Source of the DNA: Edaphobacter aggregans DSM 19364
GTDB taxonomy: Bacteria > Acidobacteriota > Terriglobia > Terriglobales > Acidobacteriaceae
Reading direction: 5' to 3'
Assembly (NCBI RefSeq): GCF_000745965.1
Contig: NZ_JQKI01000012.1
Location: 62,001 to 126,000, forward strand
DNA: 64,000 bases
This document shows positions 13,745 through 64,000 of this stretch, one piece after another. Each line of letters opens with the position of its first letter. Position 1 is the first letter of the stretch. The notes under the pieces were generated by a model. It was not told where the DNA came from. It worked only from the letters and a program-made list of their open reading frames with translations, and searched no databases. The position numbers and the translations under genes are program-made.

Positions 13745-13812
13745 ACCTCGGCGGCTAAAGCCGCATTCAAAACAGGGCAGTTACGGCCCGGCTGAAGCCG
13801 TGCCCTTAAGCA
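13745..13812 (+). repeat. GGCTAAAGCC-type hairpin repeats
   Basis: Two short hairpins follow each other: GCGGCTAAAGCCGC and ACGGCCCGGCTGAAGCCGTG followed by CCCTTAAG. The same GGCTAAAGCC/CCCTTAA pattern occurs at 14754-14818 and, as GGGGTTGAAGCCCC, near 27183. The rest of 13677-13943 holds nothing else that can be supported. Confidence 0.6.
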
Positions 13813-13943: not shown

Positions 13944-14720
13944 CTACTGGTTTACTCCGCTGGCCAGGAAGCCGCCGTCGACGACGAGGACTTCGCCGGT
14001 GACGAAGGTGGAGGCGTTGGAGGCGAGGTAGATGGCCGAGCCGACGAGTTCTTCGGTTTTGCCGAAGCGGCCCATGGGGGTCCGCATGAGGAGCTCTTTG
14101 CCGCGGTCGCTCTCGTCGAGGAGCTTCTGATTGAGGGCGGTGCGGAAGACTCCGGGGGCGATGGCGTTGACGGTGACTCCGCGGGCGCTCCACTCCACGG
14201 CGAGGGACTTGGTGAGGGCGGCGACGGCGGCCTTGGAGGCGGCGTAGGCGGTGACCTCTTTGAGGGAGACGAAGGAGTTGAGCGAGGCGATGTTGATAAT
14301 GCGGCCGTAGCCGCGCTCAAGCATGTGCCTTCCGAAGATCTGGCAGGCGCGGAGGGTGCCGGTGACATTGGTGTCCATGATGTCGTTCCAGGTCTCTTCG
14401 GAGACGGTGAGGGTGGGCTCGCGCTTGATCTTTCCGGCGGAGTTGATGAGGATGTCGACCTTTCCGAACTCCTTGAGGGTCCCTTCGAGGACGGCCTCGA
14501 GGGAGGCGCGGTCGCCGACGTCGGAGGTGAGGCGTAGTGCGCGGCGGCCCTTGGCTTCGATGGCCTGAGCGGCCTCTTCGACCTGCTCGGCACGGCGGGA
14601 GGTGGCGACGACGTCGGCGCCCGCCTCGGCTAGCCCGACTGCCATTGCCAGGCCGATGCCTGAGGTTCCGCCTACGACGACTGCCGACTTGCCGGTGAGA
14701 TCAAACAAAGGGTACGCCAT
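13944..14720 (-). CDS. Short-chain dehydrogenase, probably a sugar-acid oxidoreductase (gluconate 5-dehydrogenase/KduD-like)
   Basis: The 258-aa SDR has the NAD(P) motif VVVGGTSGIGLAMAVGLAEAG, NSAG (INSAGKIKREP), the catalytic Ser and YxxxK (IINIASLNSFVSLKEVTAYA then ASKAA) and a C-terminal VDGGFL. Its layout (PLFDLTGKSAVVVGG) matches gluconate 5-dehydrogenase and KduD-type enzymes acting on hexonates and keto-acids. The ATG at 14720 is preferred because GAGAGGA lies 9 bases upstream; an ATG at 14729 sits directly on that site. In this cluster it could reduce fructuronate to mannonate, which is inference from neighbours. Confidence 0.85.
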   Translation of the reverse strand: MAYPLFDLTGKSAVVVGGTSGIGLAMAVGLAEAGADVVATSRRAEQVEEAAQAIEAKGRRALRLTSDVGDRASLEAVLEGTLKEFGKVDILINSAGKIKREPTLTVSEETWNDIMDTNVTGTLRACQIFGRHMLERGYGRIINIASLNSFVSLKEVTAYAASKAAVAALTKSLAVEWSARGVTVNAIAPGVFRTALNQKLLDESDRGKELLMRTPMGRFGKTEELVGSAIYLASNASTFVTGEVLVVDGGFLASGVNQ

Positions 14721-14740
14721 GAAAATCATTCCTCTCTTGC

Positions 14741-14818
14741 TGTGTGTTTTACCTCAGGGGCTAAAGCCCCCTTTTTGCCTTCGACTCTTGCGGCACGGCT
14801 AAAGCCGTGCCCTTAACA
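14741..14818 (+). repeat. Leader-shared motif plus GGCTAAAGCC hairpins upstream of the SDR gene
   Basis: TGTGTGTTTTACCT (14741-14754) is identical to a stretch immediately upstream of the tagaturonate epimerase gene (16923-16936). It is followed by CAGGGGCTAAAGCCCCC and GCACGGCTAAAGCCGTGCCC hairpins, the second ending CTTAACAAAA. These hairpins belong to the same small repeat class as 13745-13812. Confidence 0.6.
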
Positions 14819-14834
14819 AAACAACTCGCATTGT

Positions 14835-14905
14835 GAAACCGCAGATCCTTCGACTGCGCCTCTCGCGGTGAGACCGCGAGAGGCTTCGCTCAGGATGACA
14901 CTTTA
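14835..14905 (+). repeat. REP-like palindromic repeat copy 3, with an inserted hairpin
   Basis: The outer parts GCAGATCCTTCGACT and TTCGCTCAGGATGACACTT match copy 6. The loop is replaced by a perfect 12-bp inverted repeat, GCCTCTCGCGGT-gag-ACCGCGAGAGGC, so one palindrome is nested in another. It lies between the SDR and gluconokinase genes. The following 14906-14974 contains short direct repeats of GTTCGTG. Confidence 0.75.
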
Positions 14906-14974
14906 TTCAGGTTCGTGGTTCGTGATGTGCGAGGTTCGTGGTTCGTGATTCAGGTGCGTGGTTCGTGTATCTGG

Positions 14975-15499
14975 TTATAGAGCTGTTTTGTTCGTTGCGG
15001 GAATCTTGTTGAGAATGCTTTGGACGACCTGCTCCGGGGGGCGATCATTCACTATACGCAAAGCGTCGGCGGGAGGCTCGAGTGTATCGAGCTGGCTCTG
15101 GAGCAGCGCGGGGTTCATGAACTCGTGGTGGCGCTCGGCGAGCCGCTCGGCGAGGACAGCTTCGGGGGCGTCGAGCCAGACGAAGGTGATGGAGTCATGC
15201 GGGATTCCGGCGGCGAGGGTGTCGCGGTACTTCTGTTTGAGGGCGGAGCAGGCGAGGACGCCGTTTTTCCCTTCCTTGTACCAACCTTGCATGAGTTTGT
15301 TCAGGGTCTCGAGCCAGGGCTGGCGGTCTTCATCGTTGAGGGGGTGGCCGGCGGCCATCTTCTGCTTATTGGCTGGGGGGTGGTAGTCGTCGGCGTCGGC
15401 GAAGACGGCCCCGGCGCGGCTGGCGAGCAGCTTGCCGATGGTGGATTTGCCAGAGCCGGTGACTCCCATCAGGACTACGATCATCTTCTGCTTGAACAT
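14975..15499 (-). CDS. gntK: Gluconokinase
   Basis: It phosphorylates D-gluconate to 6-phosphogluconate (cytosol), feeding the pentose phosphate or Entner-Doudoroff route. The 174-aa size is typical of GntK. The P-loop is VLMGVTGSGKSTIG, followed by FADADDYHPPANKQKMAAGH with the gluconate-binding region, LNDEDRQPWL, VLACSALKQKYRD and the lid/phosphate-binding LAERLAERHHEFM. The start chosen is ATG 15499; ATG 15484 is possible. The frame is open to 15691 but overlaps the upstream gene. It sits in the same-strand run with the SDR, tagaturonate epimerase and LarA-family epimerase. Confidence 0.94.
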   Translation of the reverse strand: MFKQKMIVVLMGVTGSGKSTIGKLLASRAGAVFADADDYHPPANKQKMAAGHPLNDEDRQPWLETLNKLMQGWYKEGKNGVLACSALKQKYRDTLAAGIPHDSITFVWLDAPEAVLAERLAERHHEFMNPALLQSQLDTLEPPADALRIVNDRPPEQVVQSILNKIPATNKTAL

Positions 15500-15653
15500 C
15501 CTATCGGTCAGGATTGATCGGGCATTTGGCCCTTTGTTTTCTTGCTCGACCCTCTGGGGGCTCTGCCCCAGGCTGGTATAAAGCGGGCCTACGGCCCTTT
15601 GTTTCTGCACCTGCCGCAAGCATCCCTTCAGAGGTGCTGCAGACTGCCGTTTC

Positions 15654-16922
15654 TTATGATCCCAGAAAGACCGGGCGGATGTGTCTATCAAAGAGATTCG
15701 TCGTTACATTTCGTGCGACGACCTCTTCGTTGGCCTCGAGCGCTTCGAGGTAGCGTGAGCCCATCCTGGCCGCGACCTTGAAGCCGACGTGGAGCAGCTG
15801 GCGGAGGCTGGGGTTGTAGCACGGATTGGACTGGTCGTGACGGAGCGCGGAGACGAACTGCTGGCTGGTCCAGTGATCGACGTCGTCGGGCGTGGGGAGC
15901 TTTGCGGGGTCGATGTCGATGACAGTGGCGTAAGGGGCGCAGAGCTCCTCGCGATGACCGTAGGCCTCGCGGTAGACCTCTTTGGCGATGGTCAGACCGG
16001 AGCCGCCGGCCTCGGCGAGGCCGATGAGCTCTTCGAGCCAGGTGGTACCGGCGGTCTTGAGGTGCAGGCCGGCGCCGGTGGCCTGCACGGTCTCGTAGAT
16101 GGGCTTGTAGATGGAGAACTTGTCGGAGCCGGAGTGGACGCTGAGCTTGAGGTTCGCGGGCAGGCCGTAGGTTTTGACGGCGAAGGCGATGGCGGCGATG
16201 TCTTCGCGGAACTCGCGGGCGAACTGCTGGACGTCGCCGACGTAGTCGACGCCCTTGTTGAAGCGGCCGGTGAACTTGGGAGCGATGGTCTGGAGGGGGA
16301 TCTTCTCGTCGGCGATGGCGGCGAGGATGATGAGCAGCTCGACGGGGGTCTGGGGCGAGTCGGTCTCGTCCATGGAGACCTCGGGGATGAAGCGGCCAGC
16401 GCCCTTGTTCTCGACGAGGAAGCGGTAGATGCGCCCGGCGTCCTGGACGGCGGCGAGGAACTTGTTGGCGATGCGGGTGACGAAGGCCTCGTCGGTCTTG
16501 AAGGGCTCGGTGATGCCGGGGATGGTGACGGTGCCGATCAATTCAGGGTGGCGAGCGACGAAGGCCTTCACGTCGGCCGCGGCGGCGGGCTTGCCGATCA
16601 TCTCGGCGACGTCGAGGGTGAAGAAGTCGCAGGGGGCGAGGAAGCGCGAGACCGTGGAGAGGTTGATGTGGTCTGCGTCGAGGAAGTAGGGCTTGTTCCA
16701 GACTAGCTCCTTGACGGCGGCGTCGGCGGCCTTGCGGGTCTGGGCGGGGTCGCTGCCGATGATGTTGTGCTCGCGGTTGGACTTGTTCCAGACCGGGGAG
16801 ACTTCGACGCCCGCCTTCGCGGCCTGAATGCATGCGGAGAGCTGTGCCTTTGCCTGGTGGGCGAATCGATCACCTACGCCGATGGAGAATCTTGGAAGCT
16901 GGTTTGTCAGGGTATCGCCCAT
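15654..16922 (-). CDS. uxaE: Tagaturonate epimerase family protein (UxaE-like)
   Basis: The 422-aa protein matches the UxaE family by overall pattern, including IGVGDRFAHQAKAQLSA near the N-terminus, FFTLDVAEMIG, and the characteristic LKLSVHSGSDKFSIYKPIYE around residues 255-275. UxaE (first characterised from Thermotoga hexuronate catabolism) interconverts D-tagaturonate and D-fructuronate, replacing the classic separate galacturonate branch. No signal peptide is visible, so it is cytosolic. It follows the LarA-family gene by 86 bp. The leader holds TGGTCCAACCA and the TGTGTGTTTTACCT motif. The symbol rests on family resemblance only. Confidence 0.82.
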   Translation of the reverse strand: MGDTLTNQLPRFSIGVGDRFAHQAKAQLSACIQAAKAGVEVSPVWNKSNREHNIIGSDPAQTRKAADAAVKELVWNKPYFLDADHINLSTVSRFLAPCDFFTLDVAEMIGKPAAAADVKAFVARHPELIGTVTIPGITEPFKTDEAFVTRIANKFLAAVQDAGRIYRFLVENKGAGRFIPEVSMDETDSPQTPVELLIILAAIADEKIPLQTIAPKFTGRFNKGVDYVGDVQQFAREFREDIAAIAFAVKTYGLPANLKLSVHSGSDKFSIYKPIYETVQATGAGLHLKTAGTTWLEELIGLAEAGGSGLTIAKEVYREAYGHREELCAPYATVIDIDPAKLPTPDDVDHWTSQQFVSALRHDQSNPCYNPSLRQLLHVGFKVAARMGSRYLEALEANEEVVARNVTTNLFDRHIRPVFLGS

Positions 16923-16955
16923 TGTGTGTTTTACCTATCCCTATTGGTCCAACCA
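16923..16955 (-). promoter_or_regulatory. Candidate operator and shared leader motif upstream of uxaE
   Basis: 16945-16955 reads TGGTCCAACCA, an inverted repeat TGGT-N3-ACCA about 23 bp before the ATG. The same architecture (TGGTAAAACCA) lies 30 bp before the LarA-family gene. 16923-16936 (TGTGTGTTTTACCT on the plus strand) is repeated upstream of the SDR gene. E. coli ExuR/UxuR-type sites have a TGGT..ACCA core, so a GntR-family hexuronate regulator is possible. This is inference. Confidence 0.4.
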
Positions 16956-17008
16956 CTTGCAACCGTCCCAGCATACTCATCTGGGCGAGGATAGGCAAGA
17001 AGGCGATG

Positions 17009-18283
17009 TCAGTCTTTGAAACGTCCGCGATAGGCCCAGAGTCCGAGGCCGGGGTTGGAGATGTAGAAGATCTCCTCGCCGTCGACGGTGTTCCAGCCGT
17101 CCTTGAGGAGGTCCGGGTTATATTTGGCGGTGTAGCGGGCGAGTTCGCCGTACTGGAAGTGGACGCTCTCGATCTCCTGCCGGGTGAGGTGGCCGGGGCA
17201 GTAGCGGATGGTGAAGCGGCCTTCGCTGGAGCCGTGGATGAGGTGCGCTGCGGCGGAGAGGTTGCCGGCGAGGGCGGGGTCCTCCTTGACTGCCTCGAGG
17301 GTGCGCGGGGTTCCGCAGTAGCCGTACTTGCGGATGAGCTTGTCGATGGCGGCGTCTTCTCCGAACTCGTGGACGCCGGGGGCAAGGACGATGAGTTCGG
17401 CGTTGTCGGCGAGCGCCATGCGGGTGCGGTAGACGCTCTTGTTGCCGAGCCATGTGGAGCGGAACTCGTGGGGGTCGAGAAAGACGACTGCCTTCTTGAT
17501 CTCGCGGTCGAGCATCTGGAAGTTGACCTGGAGCGAAAGGGCGGCGGCGAGGTTGAAGCACTCGACGTCATCGCCGATGTAGAGGCCGCGGAGGGCGAGC
17601 TTGCCTGCGGCGTTTTTGCCGACGACGGTCTGGATGTAGACGATGGGGAGGCTCTTGGCGAAGTGGTCGCTGGCGTAGTTGAGGACGCGGCGGACGGGGG
17701 TGTCGGCGCGGCCCATCATGCGCTCCATCCCGTAGACGGCGCCGAGGAAGTGGGAGCGATGGATGCCGATGGAGCCGCCGGTTCCGACGAAGATGTTCTT
17801 GTTGTAGTTGGCCATGCCGACGACCTCGTGAGGGACGACCTGGCCGATGGAGAGGATGAGGTCGTGGCCGCCGTCGCGGAGAAGTTTGTTTACCTGCGCG
17901 GGCCAGCAGTAGTCGACCTTGCCTTCGGAGACCTCGTAGAGGAAGGCGCCGGGGACCTCGCCGAGGGTGACGACATCGTTGCGCCAGTCGTGGACGCGGA
18001 AGAGCTCGCGGGGGGTAGCGCCGTACATGTTGGCGATCTCGGAGTCGGTCATGGCCTTGTGGGTTCCGAGGGCGGGGAGGACGTCGGTGAGGCGCGAGCC
18101 ATAGTACTGCCAGGCGAGTTCGGTGATGACGCCGGACTGCGAGTGGAAGCGGGTGAAGTCGGGCGGAACAGCGAGGACTCTATTGCGGGGGCCGATGGCA
18201 TCCAAAGCGGAGAAGAGGGCGGTGCGAAGGTCGTCGGCCGACATCTCCGTGGTCGGACTTCCTGCGGCGAAGTAGAGGCTCAT
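17009..18283 (-). CDS. LarA-superfamily nickel-pincer epimerase, probable D-gluconate/D-mannonate 2-epimerase
   Basis: The 424-aa protein carries the LarA set of key residues: Arg45 in PPDFTRFHS, His75 in ALGTHKAM, His152 in GQVVPHEVVG, Lys162 in NYNKNIFVG and His178 in GIHRSHFLGA, matching in order and spacing the cofactor- and nickel-binding residues of lactate racemase (R75, H108, H174, K184, H200). It lacks the SGGAKS-type text of true LarA, so it belongs to a divergent subgroup. Known LarA homologues include D-gluconate 2-epimerases, and the neighbouring gluconokinase and tagaturonate epimerase support that substrate. The larBCE cofactor genes are not in the window. Confidence 0.8.
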   Translation of the reverse strand: MSLYFAAGSPTTEMSADDLRTALFSALDAIGPRNRVLAVPPDFTRFHSQSGVITELAWQYYGSRLTDVLPALGTHKAMTDSEIANMYGATPRELFRVHDWRNDVVTLGEVPGAFLYEVSEGKVDYCWPAQVNKLLRDGGHDLILSIGQVVPHEVVGMANYNKNIFVGTGGSIGIHRSHFLGAVYGMERMMGRADTPVRRVLNYASDHFAKSLPIVYIQTVVGKNAAGKLALRGLYIGDDVECFNLAAALSLQVNFQMLDREIKKAVVFLDPHEFRSTWLGNKSVYRTRMALADNAELIVLAPGVHEFGEDAAIDKLIRKYGYCGTPRTLEAVKEDPALAGNLSAAAHLIHGSSEGRFTIRYCPGHLTRQEIESVHFQYGELARYTAKYNPDLLKDGWNTVDGEEIFYISNPGLGLWAYRGRFKD

Positions 18284-18312
18284 GGCATCTCATCTTACGC
18301 TGGAGAAGTGCG

Positions 18313-18323
18313 TGGTAAAACCA
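18313..18323 (-). promoter_or_regulatory. Candidate TGGT-N3-ACCA operator between the LarA-family gene and the hydrolase gene
   Basis: TGGTAAAACCA lies 30 bp upstream of the LarA-family start and just before the divergent hydrolase ATG, in a context CGTGGTAAAACCAATTTGG that partly extends the symmetry. It shares its arms with 16945-16955. The regulator is unknown. Confidence 0.4.
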
Positions 18324-18344
18324 ATTTGGGACAAGGAGAACATG

Positions 18345-19088
18345 ATGTTGGAACAGGATGTTGATCTGACGACGGCCGATGGTACGGTGGATGCGGTGCT
18401 CTTCACACCGGATGCGGAGAAGGCGCTGCCGGGTGTGCTGCATATTCCGGATATCAGGAGCATCCGCGAGACGCATCGCGCGATGGCACGCAGGCTTGTT
18501 GGCGAGGGGTACACAGTGCTGATGCCGAATCCGTTCTACCGGACGAGCAGGTCGCCGGTGTTTGCGCCTGAGATCAAGCACGGGAGCCCGGAGTTTATGA
18601 AGCGGATTCAGGAGTTGATCGCACCGCTGACTCCGGAGGGGCTGGAGCAGGATTTAAGTGTTTATCTGGATTACCTGACCTCGCGGCCTACGACGGCGAT
18701 CGGCAAGGTGGGTGTGGTGGGCTACTGCATTGGGGGAGGCATCGCGCTGCGAGCGGCGGCGGTGAAGCCTGACCGCGTGGGGGCGGTGGCTTCGTTTCAT
18801 GGCGGAGGGTTGTATAAGCCCAGTGATCCGGCGAGTCCGCACCTTGTGCTGCCGCGGGTGAAGGCGATCCTCTACTTCGGCCATGCGGTGAAGGACGGGA
18901 GCATGACCGCGGAGGATATTGCGGGGTTCGAGAAGGCGCTTGAAGAGTGGGGTGGGGATTATACGAGCAAGGTGTACGACGGAGCGCACCATGGATGGAC
19001 GGTTCGCGACAACCCGGCCTACAACGAGCCACAGGCGGAGCGGGCCTTTGCGAAGATGATGGCGCTGTTCCGTGAGACGCTTGGGTGA
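18345..19088 (+). CDS. Dienelactone hydrolase family protein
   Basis: The 247-aa alpha/beta hydrolase has the DLH nucleophile motif VVGYCIGGGIALR with Cys as nucleophile, VASFHGGG after it, and a C-terminal His in YDGAHHGWTVRD. The Asp is probably that in the FGHAVKDGSM segment. DLH enzymes open lactone rings, but many relatives have other ester substrates, so the function is open. The ATG at 18345 is best supported by AAGGAG six to seven bases upstream; the ATG at 18342 and an upstream frame beginning at 18282 are less likely. No signal peptide. Confidence 0.88.
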   Translation: MLEQDVDLTTADGTVDAVLFTPDAEKALPGVLHIPDIRSIRETHRAMARRLVGEGYTVLMPNPFYRTSRSPVFAPEIKHGSPEFMKRIQELIAPLTPEGLEQDLSVYLDYLTSRPTTAIGKVGVVGYCIGGGIALRAAAVKPDRVGAVASFHGGGLYKPSDPASPHLVLPRVKAILYFGHAVKDGSMTAEDIAGFEKALEEWGGDYTSKVYDGAHHGWTVRDNPAYNEPQAERAFAKMMALFRETLG

Positions 19089-61486: not shown

Positions 61487-62674
61487 ATGAAGACCTTCTC
61501 ACGGAGAGAGTTTTGTGCGCTGGCCGGCGCAACCGCTGCCAGCCTTCGCAGCATGGATGCCTGGGCGGCACCGCTCAAGGGAGCCTACGAGCTGGTAGCC
61601 TCCACCGACCGCACCCGCATCCTCGCCGCAGCTGACAAATACCTCTCTGAGCAGCCCATCACCGTCACGGCCTCGCACTCCGAGCGCAGCCCCGGCGGCG
61701 CACACGATTTCTTCTCCGAGGGCGACTACTGGTGGCCAGATCCTGAGAACCCTGGCGGCCCCTACATCCGCCGCGACGGCGAATCCAATCCGCAGAACTT
61801 CAACGGCCACCGCGAGGCGATGATCCGGCTTAGTCTCATCGTCCCTGCTCTCACTGCGGCGTGGATGCTCACGCGGCAGAAGAAGTACTCCGATCACGCC
61901 GAAAAACACCTGCGCGCCTGGTTCGTCGCCCCCGACACGAAGATGAATCCGAGCCTGCAGTACGCCCAGGCTATCTTCGGGGTGAGTAAAGGCCGCGGAA
62001 CCGGCATCATCGACACGCTGCATCTCGTCGAGGTCGCCCGAGCCGCCACGCTGCTGCGCAACGGCAGCGCGCTTAAGTCCGGCGCGGAGGTTCGCCGCTG
62101 GTTCGCCGACTACCTCGAATGGATGCGCACCTCGAAGAACGGCCAGGAGGAGCGCGACGCCGCGAACAACCACGGAACCTGCTGGGTCCTGCAGGCCGGC
62201 GAATTCGCCCGCTTCACCGGCAACACCGAGGTCATGGAATGGTGCCGCGACCGCTTCCGCACCACGCTCGTCCCCAAACAGATCGCGCCCGACGGCAGCC
62301 TTCCTCTCGAACTCGCGCGAACCAAGCCCTACAGCTACTCGCTCTTCGACATGGATGTGCTCTGCGGCATCGCGCAAAGCCTCTCCAACAGGCAGGAGAG
62401 CCTCTGGAGCTTCTCAACTCCTGACGGCCGCGGCCTCGCGAAGATGATGGAGTTCATGGTTCCCTTCATCGCCGACAAGTCGAAGTGGCCCTACAAGCAC
62501 GACGTCGAGCACTGGGACGACTTCCCTGTCCGCAATCCGGCGCTGATCTTCTCCGGCATCGCCTATGACAAGCCCGAGTACATCACGGTCTGGAAGCGGC
62601 TCAACCCCGACCCCACCGTCCCCGAGGTCATTCGCAACTTCCCCATCCGCCAGCCGCTTCTGTGGATCTCCTGA
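61487..62674 (+). CDS. Secreted alginate lyase-family protein (PL5-like)
   Basis: The 395-aa protein has a Tat-like signal (MKTFSRREFCALAGATAASL). The catalytic domain shows the all-helical alginate lyase pattern: FFSEGDYWWPDPENPGGPYI RRDGESNP, YAQAIFGVSKGRGTGIIDTL and the conserved NNHGTCWVLQAGEFARFTGN with Asn and His of the active site; RTKPYSYSLFDMDVLCG also fits. Family members cleave uronic-acid polymers by beta-elimination; the exact polymer is unknown. GGAGGTAGCAGATAGAG precedes the ATG. It ends at a terminator shared with the convergent hydrolase. Confidence 0.9.
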   Translation: MKTFSRREFCALAGATAASLRSMDAWAAPLKGAYELVASTDRTRILAAADKYLSEQPITVTASHSERSPGGAHDFFSEGDYWWPDPENPGGPYIRRDGESNPQNFNGHREAMIRLSLIVPALTAAWMLTRQKKYSDHAEKHLRAWFVAPDTKMNPSLQYAQAIFGVSKGRGTGIIDTLHLVEVARAATLLRNGSALKSGAEVRRWFADYLEWMRTSKNGQEERDAANNHGTCWVLQAGEFARFTGNTEVMEWCRDRFRTTLVPKQIAPDGSLPLELARTKPYSYSLFDMDVLCGIAQSLSNRQESLWSFSTPDGRGLAKMMEFMVPFIADKSKWPYKHDVEHWDDFPVRNPALIFSGIAYDKPEYITVWKRLNPDPTVPEVIRNFPIRQPLLWIS

Positions 62675-62739: not shown

Positions 62740-64000
62740 CTACTTCCCGCCCGCCAGCCGGTTCATCTGATAACCCGCCATCAGGAAGCCTCCCACGCCG
62801 TACACATGGCTGGACGAGGGCTTGAACTTGCCCGGCTGCGCATCCACCGGCTGAATCGAGCCCAGCCGTCCGTCCGCGTAGACGTGCTGCAACATTCCCT
62901 TCCACGACTTCTCAACAACAGGGAGGTACGTCTTGCGATCGAGGATGTGCTCGTTGATGCCATACGCAATCGCGTACGTAAAGAACGCCGAGCCCGAGAC
63001 CTCCGGAAGCTCATACGCGCCCGGATCGAGCAGTCCCGAACGCCACAAGCCGTCTTCGCCCTGGATGTTCTTCACTGCCTCGGCCATCTCCTTGAACTGC
63101 GCGATGTACTTCGGCCGGCTCGGATAGTTCTTCGGCATGATCTCCAGGACCTTCACCAGGCCGCCCAGAACCCATCCATTGCCGCGCGACCAGTAGAGGC
63201 TCTTGCCGTTCGCCTGTTTCTGCGTCAGGTAGCGCTCGTCGCGGAAGTAGAGGTGATCGGTCGGGCTATAGAGCTTTGCCGAGGTCTGCCACCACTCCTT
63301 GTCCATATAGTCGAGATATTTCCTGTCGCCCGTCGCCTTGTACAACTGGGCCAGCACCGGAGGAGCCATGTACAGTGCATCGCACCACCACCACACCAGC
63401 TTCGCAGGATCATCCGGACGAGCCACCAGGCGATCCATCACCTCATTCGTGTTCGCCATCCGCACCGGCTTGCGCTGAGCCTTCGGATCGCGCAGGTAGA
63501 GATACATATACGACTTGCCCATCGCCTCGTCGTCGGCGTGCGGAAAGCGATTGTCGATCAGCAGCCACTGCTCTTCTTCAGAGTACTTCTCGACTGCATT
63601 CCGAAACGTCGGATCGCCCGTAGCATCCGACGCAGCAAGCAGACCGTCGTACATCGCGGCATAGGTCCACAGCCGGTTGAACGTCGGCTCCGCCACCTTC
63701 ACCTGCCAGTCGGCGACCTTCTTGATCACCGCCTGGATCGCCTTCGGCTTCAGATCGGACGAGATGTCGGTGGCAAGCGGTCCGGGATCATCCGGCGCAT
63801 CGCCCGAAGCCTTGGAGTCCGGCACAGGCTTATTTGCATGCGCAGGAGCGGGAGCGGCCTGCGCAAACGCAGCCGTGCTGGCGCCCACCATCGCGCTCAC
63901 AGCAACCAGGCCAAGCGCACTCGCCCGGCGAAGACCACGCAAATCCAAGAAAGAGGGACGCAGAGAGAGCGACGACCCCGACGACGCGGGGGATCGCAGT
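62740..64000 (-). CDS. GH88/GH105 unsaturated glycuronyl (rhamnogalacturonyl) hydrolase, 5' end probably outside the window
   Basis: The 402 residues from a TTG at 63948 contain a signal-peptide-like helix (ASALGLVAVSAMVGASTAAF A). The frame stays open to the right edge (LRSPASSGSSLSLRPSFL) and the TTG has no ribosome binding site, so the true start may lie outside. The catalytic domain is an (alpha/alpha)6 barrel: HADDEAMGKSYMYLYL, WWWCDALYMAPPVLAQLY with the catalytic Asp, LYWSRGNGWVLGGLVKVLEI, EDGLWRSGLLDPGAYELPEV SGSAFFTYA and HVYGVGGFLMAG. YteR-type enzymes hydrolyse the unsaturated galacturonyl end made by rhamnogalacturonan lyases, so this fits pectin use. Confidence 0.9.
   Translation of the reverse strand, partial: LRSPASSGSSLSLRPSFLDLRGLRRASALGLVAVSAMVGASTAAFAQAAPAPAHANKPVPDSKASGDAPDDPGPLATDISSDLKPKAIQAVIKKVADWQVKVAEPTFNRLWTYAAMYDGLLAASDATGDPTFRNAVEKYSEEEQWLLIDNRFPHADDEAMGKSYMYLYLRDPKAQRKPVRMANTNEVMDRLVARPDDPAKLVWWWCDALYMAPPVLAQLYKATGDRKYLDYMDKEWWQTSAKLYSPTDHLYFRDERYLTQKQANGKSLYWSRGNGWVLGGLVKVLEIMPKNYPSRPKYIAQFKEMAEAVKNIQGEDGLWRSGLLDPGAYELPEVSGSAFFTYAIAYGINEHILDRKTYLPVVEKSWKGMLQHVYADGRLGSIQPVDAQPGKFKPSSSHVYGVGGFLMAGYQMNRLAGGK

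Follow-up and report, generated by a model that had tools for sequence, protein, structure and literature searches.

A cluster of four genes in a 64,000-nt stretch of the Edaphobacter aggregans DSM 19364 genome (contig NZ_JQKI01000012.1, positions 62,001 to 126,000; here called the window) quite probably encodes the middle of a hexuronate-to-6-phosphogluconate route of the Thermotoga maritima type, with a group-18 protein of the LarA superfamily as the predicted mannonate/gluconate epimerase. The genes lie on the minus strand (13944–18283) in the order LarA, UxaE, GntK and a short-chain dehydrogenase/reductase (SDR). In the proposed route UxaC, encoded elsewhere in the genome, would convert glucuronate to fructuronate and galacturonate to tagaturonate; UxaE would turn tagaturonate into fructuronate, which the SDR would reduce to D-mannonate. 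With the nickel-pincer nucleotide (NPN) from LarB, LarC and LarE as its cofactor, the group-18 LarA would invert C2 of mannonate by hydride abstraction and return, giving D-gluconate, which GntK would phosphorylate to 6-phosphogluconate. Gnd, also encoded elsewhere, would decarboxylate this product into the pentose phosphate pathway, and saturated hexuronates would bypass 2-keto-3-deoxygluconate (KDG). The genes with their families, residues and predicted folds, their linkage and co-occurrence, the presence of larBCE, uxaC and gnd, and the lack of a detected uxuA are direct observations, from which we infer every activity and reaction direction.

The LarA protein (424 aa; 17009–18283, minus strand) scores 651.8 bits against the NCBIfam profile NF052594 (NPN_18_hexonate, ‘putative hexonate epimerase’; cut-off 500) and 30.9 bits against Pfam Lar_N (cut-off 23.3). 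All five cofactor residues named in a preliminary description of this DNA (R45, H75, H152, K162 and H178) were found, along with D42 and K282, which complete the NPN-binding and catalytic set; the whole set is invariant across 12 aligned sequences, the window protein and 11 homologues 43–87% identical to it. GntE epimerases usually carry E, V, A and H at four specificity positions (PMC11770544). Alignment with PDB entry 4nar maps these positions to E153, V154, A346 and H347, invariant not only in the 12 sequences but also in another alignment, of seven, five of which are acidobacterial LarAs outside group 18. The predicted structure (mean pLDDT 91.2) is closest to 4nar, the T. maritima GntE2 (E-value 3.4e-25, TM-score 0.82), followed by the lactate racemase 5huq. 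The protein does not belong to the sequence group of GntE2 (LarAH20), as it exceeds the group-18 cut-off and T. maritima has no match over that cut-off, an assignment that rests on the NCBIfam scores and on 4nar. The nearest named relatives are from Acidobacteriaceae: strain KBS 146 (91%) and Edaphobacter lichenicola (84%). Group 18 was hypothesised in 2020 to act on ‘a hexonate’ (PMC7583248); judged by its residues and modelled fold, the window protein is most likely a mannonate/gluconate epimerase.

UxaE (422 aa; 15654–16922, minus strand), a predicted tagaturonate/fructuronate epimerase, reaches 159.8 bits against Pfam PF16257 (cut-off 27.1). It is a short form: the match begins at position 80 of the 475 in the profile, and the first 79 positions are unmatched. 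Its model (mean pLDDT 93.7) matches 9lhu and the Cohnella UxaE 6il9 (TM-score 0.79 of the query), and the nearest folds include enzymes filed as tagatose epimerases. The predicted gluconokinase, a GntK/IdnK-type P-loop protein, scores 161.5 bits against TIGR01313 (cut-off 113.75). Its open reading frame (ORF) spans 14975–15691 on the minus strand and the family match begins at residue 72 of the frame; the ATG at 15499 is the likely start, which would place the gene at 14975–15499. These ORFs and that of the SDR lie where the preliminary description had put four same-strand genes, and Pfam and NCBIfam agree with the families it had given.

The SDR (13944–14729, minus strand), predicted to be a UxaD-like fructuronate reductase/D-mannonate oxidoreductase, is the least certain part of the cluster. 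It had been described as a hexonate-type SDR; the SDR family stands, while the hexonate-specific cut-offs were missed among the best 25 NCBIfam families. Among these the protein passes only ‘glucose 1-dehydrogenase’ (227.8 bits versus 215) and stays under the cut-offs for KduD (TIGR01832; 259.4 versus 338.85) and gluconate 5-dehydrogenase (249.9 versus 279); its relatives in PDB include 1vl8, a ‘gluconate 5-dehydrogenase’ (180.4 bits). That it works like a D-mannonate oxidoreductase is predicted from linkage. At one locus (L066) an SDR 71% identical to that of the window adjoins a LarA only ∼30% identical to the window LarA; one reductase type accompanied by two LarA types is what would be expected if both LarAs epimerise its product.

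The same genome carries UxaC (contig C21, 288.7 bits) and Gnd (contig C66, 778.6 bits, over the cut-off), and so holds, with the linked UxaE, SDR, LarA-type epimerase and gluconokinase, the components that define a route of the T. maritima type. All three genes for cofactor synthesis, the absence of which would have spoken against the preliminary description, are present: larC, recognized by family match, has larB and larE close by. In locus L073, identity to the proteins of relatives is 78.7% for larB, 77.1% for larE and 69.1% for larC, and larE, larC, larB and UxaC are 69–79% identical to proteins of same-genus genomes. We found no match to the UxuA profile PF03786 in this genome (G000), a search that did not extend to enolase-superfamily mannonate dehydratases. 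The assembly, split over 345 contigs and with 7.2% contamination, measures 8.18 Mb, compared with 3.5–5.5 Mb in the 14 other genomes of the genus, and may hold more than one organism; genes on other contigs therefore carry some doubt.

To follow the cluster in relatives we used 297 genomes of the phylum, with LarA18 defined as a protein over the NF052594 cut-off. LarA18 is present in 34 of them, including 15 of 15 in the window's genus (own genome counted). LarA18 loci for comparison came from the other 33 genomes, some loci being truncated at contig ends, and seven non-18 LarA loci were added. By tblastn, the 33 LarA18 loci include an SDR of at least 69% identity in 20 cases, UxaE in 15 and GntK in 14; all four genes occur together in eight, which bears out the linkage in relatives that the preliminary description had proposed as a check. 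Gene clustering, with families assigned from representative members, places UxaC in 18 of these loci, larE in 13, larB in 12, larC in 10, Gnd in seven and PfkB in seven. Since the linkage recurs both in relatives and in other phyla, the cluster is not a product of chance.

Co-occurrence over whole genomes points the same way. UxaE was found in 27 of the 34 LarA18 genomes versus 11 of the 263 others (Fisher p 3e-23), and UxaC in 32 of 34, one as a partial match, versus 16 of 263 (p 1e-28); both p-values ignore relatedness. At a chosen threshold of at least 100 bits on NF052594, a ‘hexonate-type’ LarA is added in 21 genomes. Each of the 11 UxaE genomes without LarA18 has a LarA homologue at 126–193 bits, so a hexonate-type LarA is present in all 38 genomes with UxaE. 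Among the 48 UxaC genomes, 45 have a hexonate-type LarA and 19 have any UxuA match.

A scan of genome contigs yielded at least 579 confirmed relatives of the group-18 LarA. Neighbours were counted in the best-scoring 80, which are not a random sample. Phylum labels, set by hand from titles, give 42 Bacteroidota, 13 Acidobacteriota, 12 Planctomycetota, six Ignavibacteria and four Verrucomicrobiota, with three unassigned (L090, L095, whose title reads Methylacidiphilum, and L119). We relied on tblastn, as picking the longest ORF misses genes in GC-rich loci (no GntK, and LarA in only 73 of 80). The tblastn counts for these 80 loci are SDR 60, PfkB 45, Gnd 40, UxaC 26, UxaE 22, major facilitator superfamily transporter 13 and GntK 3. 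The SDR label is broad here, with identity to the window SDR mostly 33–45% outside Acidobacteriota. A frequent order in Bacteroidota among these loci is a LacI regulator, SDR, PfkB, LarA18 and then Gnd.

The kinase differs between lineages. A GntK over the TIGR01313 cut-off occurs in 21 of the 34 surveyed LarA18 genomes and four of 34 named genomes chosen from the best 80 (those of L078, L079, L088 and L137, all acidobacterial by title or genus). The seven PfkB-bearing loci among the 33 are all in genomes without GntK, and GntK and PfkB do not occur together in any of the best 80 loci. In three acidobacterial loci (L033, L034 and L114) PfkB stands between UxaE and SDR, the position of GntK in the window and in L078, and the genomes of these three have no TIGR01313 match. 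Single-linkage clustering of the 51 PfkBs in the named loci put the 39 within two genes of LarA18 into one cluster (with five others) and the four near 2-keto-3-deoxy-6-phosphogluconate (KDPG) aldolase into a separate one (with three others). Single linkage merged PfkB lineages in cluster k2; a tree of 62 PfkBs, which carries a long-branch warning, separates them. One branch of the tree holds 32 rows, 31 of them LarA18-side. A branch of 18 rows consists of 13 that adjoin LarA18, from the named genomes or from the survey, three beside other LarAs and two others. A branch of 12 comprises the KDPG-aldolase-side rows in their own supported sub-branch, the PfkB of the window's own genome and two LarA18-side outliers; these outliers (L093 and L139) fall outside both LarA18 lineages and slightly weaken the reading with two lineages. 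We infer that the PfkB beside LarA18 may be a PfkB-type gluconokinase and, less likely, a mannonate kinase. A gluconokinase of the FGGY type was considered as the missing kinase and rejected, with none of 68 genomes over the cut-off. In one acidobacterial genus, however, four genomes (G122, G180, G196 and G258) have FGGY kinases scoring 276–303 bits within ∼4 kb of UxaC; on contig C10 of G122 and contig C164 of G180, both genomes without GntK, the kinase is directly beside UxaC and is a possible alternative gluconokinase. Because of these kinases the PfkB reading is weaker in the four genomes.

The order of kinase and epimerase could be the reverse, with mannonate phosphorylated first and LarA18 epimerising 6-phosphomannonate to 6-phosphogluconate; the gene set of the window is compatible with either order. 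Extracts of Lactobacillus suebicus showed mannonate kinase and 6-phosphomannonate 2-epimerase activities, for which the genes were unidentified, and a gntE homologue was present in its proteome (PMC6978723). Yet the specificity positions of the window LarA match those of GntEs acting on free mannonate, the window kinase scores as a gluconokinase and E. coli GntK is cited as unable to use mannonate (PMC6978723), so we regard phosphorylation first as unlikely. A slimmer chance is that the substrates of LarA18 are other hexonates, such as an epimer pair of the altronate, idonate or gulonate type, with the cluster serving a different sugar acid. For group 18 the authors of PMC7583248 say only ‘a hexonate’, UxaE and the SDR are divergent from solved structures, and the tagatose epimerases among the nearest folds of UxaE fit this option as well; against it, links to UxaC, UxaE, GntK and Gnd set hexuronates as the start and 6-phosphogluconate as the end, between which mannonate to gluconate is a one-step join. 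Least probable is an SDR with KduD or gluconate 5-dehydrogenase function, in a cluster for 5-ketogluconate or unsaturated uronates instead of fructuronate: these two families give its best NCBIfam scores, and the SDR closest to PfkB-LarA18 in L083 and L091 directly follows a gene of the KduI cluster (KduI by family only in L083), but the protein is under both curated cut-offs, and in L086, L124, L125, L132 and L136 the gene of the KduI cluster has beside it an SDR of its own, separate from the LarA18-side SDR.

Several observations count against a mannonate/gluconate route through LarA18. The window LarA has only 22% identity to GntE2 in the structure alignment, and the accessible parts of the pathway and LarA literature give no measured activity for any group-18 LarA. 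The SDR is under the cut-off for D-mannonate oxidoreductase (NF006132; 231.5 versus 281 bits). The genes are loosely packed, with gaps of ∼85, ∼155 and ∼245 bp. UxaE is missing from seven and UxaC from two of the 34 LarA18 genomes, although lack of UxaE fits a glucuronate route, since only galacturonate requires UxaE. LarA18 genomes are enriched in UxuA (12 of 34 versus 22 of 263), a positive association that led us to reject the idea that LarA18 excludes uxuA; the absence of uxuA anticipated in the preliminary description holds for PF03786 in the window's own genome and fails in these relatives. UxuA matches occur in 34 genomes; nine of these reach at least 335 bits, seven of them LarA18 genomes, and most other matches are shorter stretches. 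Two of the three galactarate-dehydratase-family proteins in the window's genome fall below the cut-off (the third is over it), and with these two an altronate branch is possible. None of glucuronate, galacturonate and gluconate supported growth of T. maritima (PMC3750489), and L. suebicus extracts formed no gluconate from mannonate, with phosphorylation coming first (PMC6978723).

A broader reading, to which we give near-even chances, is that a nickel-dependent hexuronate route occurs in no fewer than five phyla (Acidobacteriota, Bacteroidota, Ignavibacteria, Planctomycetota and Verrucomicrobiota) with group-18 LarAs as its mannonate/gluconate epimerases, that the gluconate kinase outside most Acidobacteriaceae is of the PfkB family, mainly in two lineages distinct from the KDPG-aldolase-side PfkBs, and that within the acidobacterial phylum hexuronates may usually be degraded in this way, more than through UxuA. 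Such a reading gives a concrete substrate pair, D-mannonate/D-gluconate, for a nickel enzyme group recorded only as ‘putative hexonate epimerase’, and by it the use of uronic acids in several phyla could depend in part on nickel supply. Our searches covered two gluconokinase families, P-loop GntK and FGGY, and a PfkB-type kinase would be an addition to these. In the proposed route the carboxyl carbon of the hexuronate would leave as CO2 at Gnd and the product would be pentose phosphate, not pyruvate.

Other features of the window and of the related loci are as follows. Two 20-bp palindromes of the GGCACGGCTTTAGCCGTGCC type, one perfect and one imperfect, flank the SDR gene (14792–14811 and 13785–13804); this type has four strand matches, at two sites, in the window versus 0.01 expected. 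A promoter scan showed no excess (one found versus 0.9 in shuffles). The first ATG of a dienelactone-hydrolase-family gene (18282–19088) overlaps the LarA start on the opposite strand, and a later ATG near 18342 would make space for a divergent promoter; the cluster of this gene occurs in six of 41 loci (gene clustering, window counted). A PdxB-like 2-hydroxyacid dehydrogenase (L089:9278–10420; 440 bits, cut-off 434; one member tested) belongs to a cluster found near LarA18, often before Gnd, in 24 of the best 80 loci, and a Gfo/Idh/MocA oxidoreductase (L094:5639–6655; one member tested) lies closely 3′ of LarA18 in 16 of the same 80.

Near UxaC, 10 loci of relatives carry a cluster of ∼630-aa proteins (L074:10347–12194, L035:11805–13703), the L035 member of which has no Pfam or NCBIfam match; a 66% identical homologue adjoins UxaC in the window's own genome. 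An aldo/keto reductase gene (L073:6412–7434) accompanies larB/larC in most of the nine loci of its cluster, and the copy in the window's genome is 83% identical to that of L034. A PfkB gene resembling KDG kinases, under their cut-offs, lies ∼6 kb or less from larBCE (L073:16738–17841; no genome-wide search for kdgK was made). With this gene and the galactarate-dehydratase-family genes in the genome, metabolism of KDG from other sources is possible. The preliminary description had also cited pectin-type GH88/105 and lyase genes at 61–64 kb. The GH88 gene is there (62740–63948), while the lyase (61487–62674), adjoining it on the opposite strand, is of the alginate-lyase family PF05426. Products of GH88 are unsaturated uronates, normally entering through KduI/KduD and KDG, and GH88 is therefore no argument for the route proposed here.

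The preliminary description had joined the four steps into one pathway; larBCE, the linkage and the lack of a detected uxuA in the window's genome support it, but the route itself has been published before, for T. maritima. To this the window adds a new member, with a different epimerase group of predicted function; Table S1 of PMC7583248 may already list the gene context of group 18. The step from mannonate to gluconate goes back to a proposal of 2012 (Rodionova 2012), and homologues of gntE have been pointed out in Lactobacillus, Acidobacterium and Terriglobus (PMC6978723), the last of the same family, Acidobacteriaceae, as Edaphobacter.

Compared with the uxaE-uxaD-gntE-gntK route of T. maritima, the window has the same four predicted steps and likewise an SDR-type reductase; mannonate oxidoreductase activity is reported for UxaD of T. 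maritima, which belongs to the SDRs (PMC5673643, citing Rodionova 2012). The epimerases differ in group (18 in the window, 20 for GntE2), the window UxaE is a short form and the kinase family TIGR01313 has no match in the T. maritima genome. UxuA is present in T. maritima, whereas none was detected in the window's genome. The gnd gene is within the T. maritima operon (PMC3750489) and beside LarA18 in other lineages. With LarA groups 19 and 20 (GntE1 and GntE2) and LarAH15 of Phytophthora, the window LarA has in common the NPN-binding and catalytic residues and the E/V/A/H specificity type (PMC7583248, PMC11770544). Activities of these three were measured (PMC7583248, PMC11770544), GntE1 and the T. 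maritima GntE2 converting mannonate to gluconate (PMC7583248), whereas the activity of group 18 is predicted. In the mannonate kinase/6-phosphomannonate 2-epimerase route of L. suebicus, the genes of which are unidentified (PMC6978723), the order of kinase and epimerase is the reverse of that proposed for the window; both routes would join the isomerase route to 6-phosphogluconate and avoid KDG.

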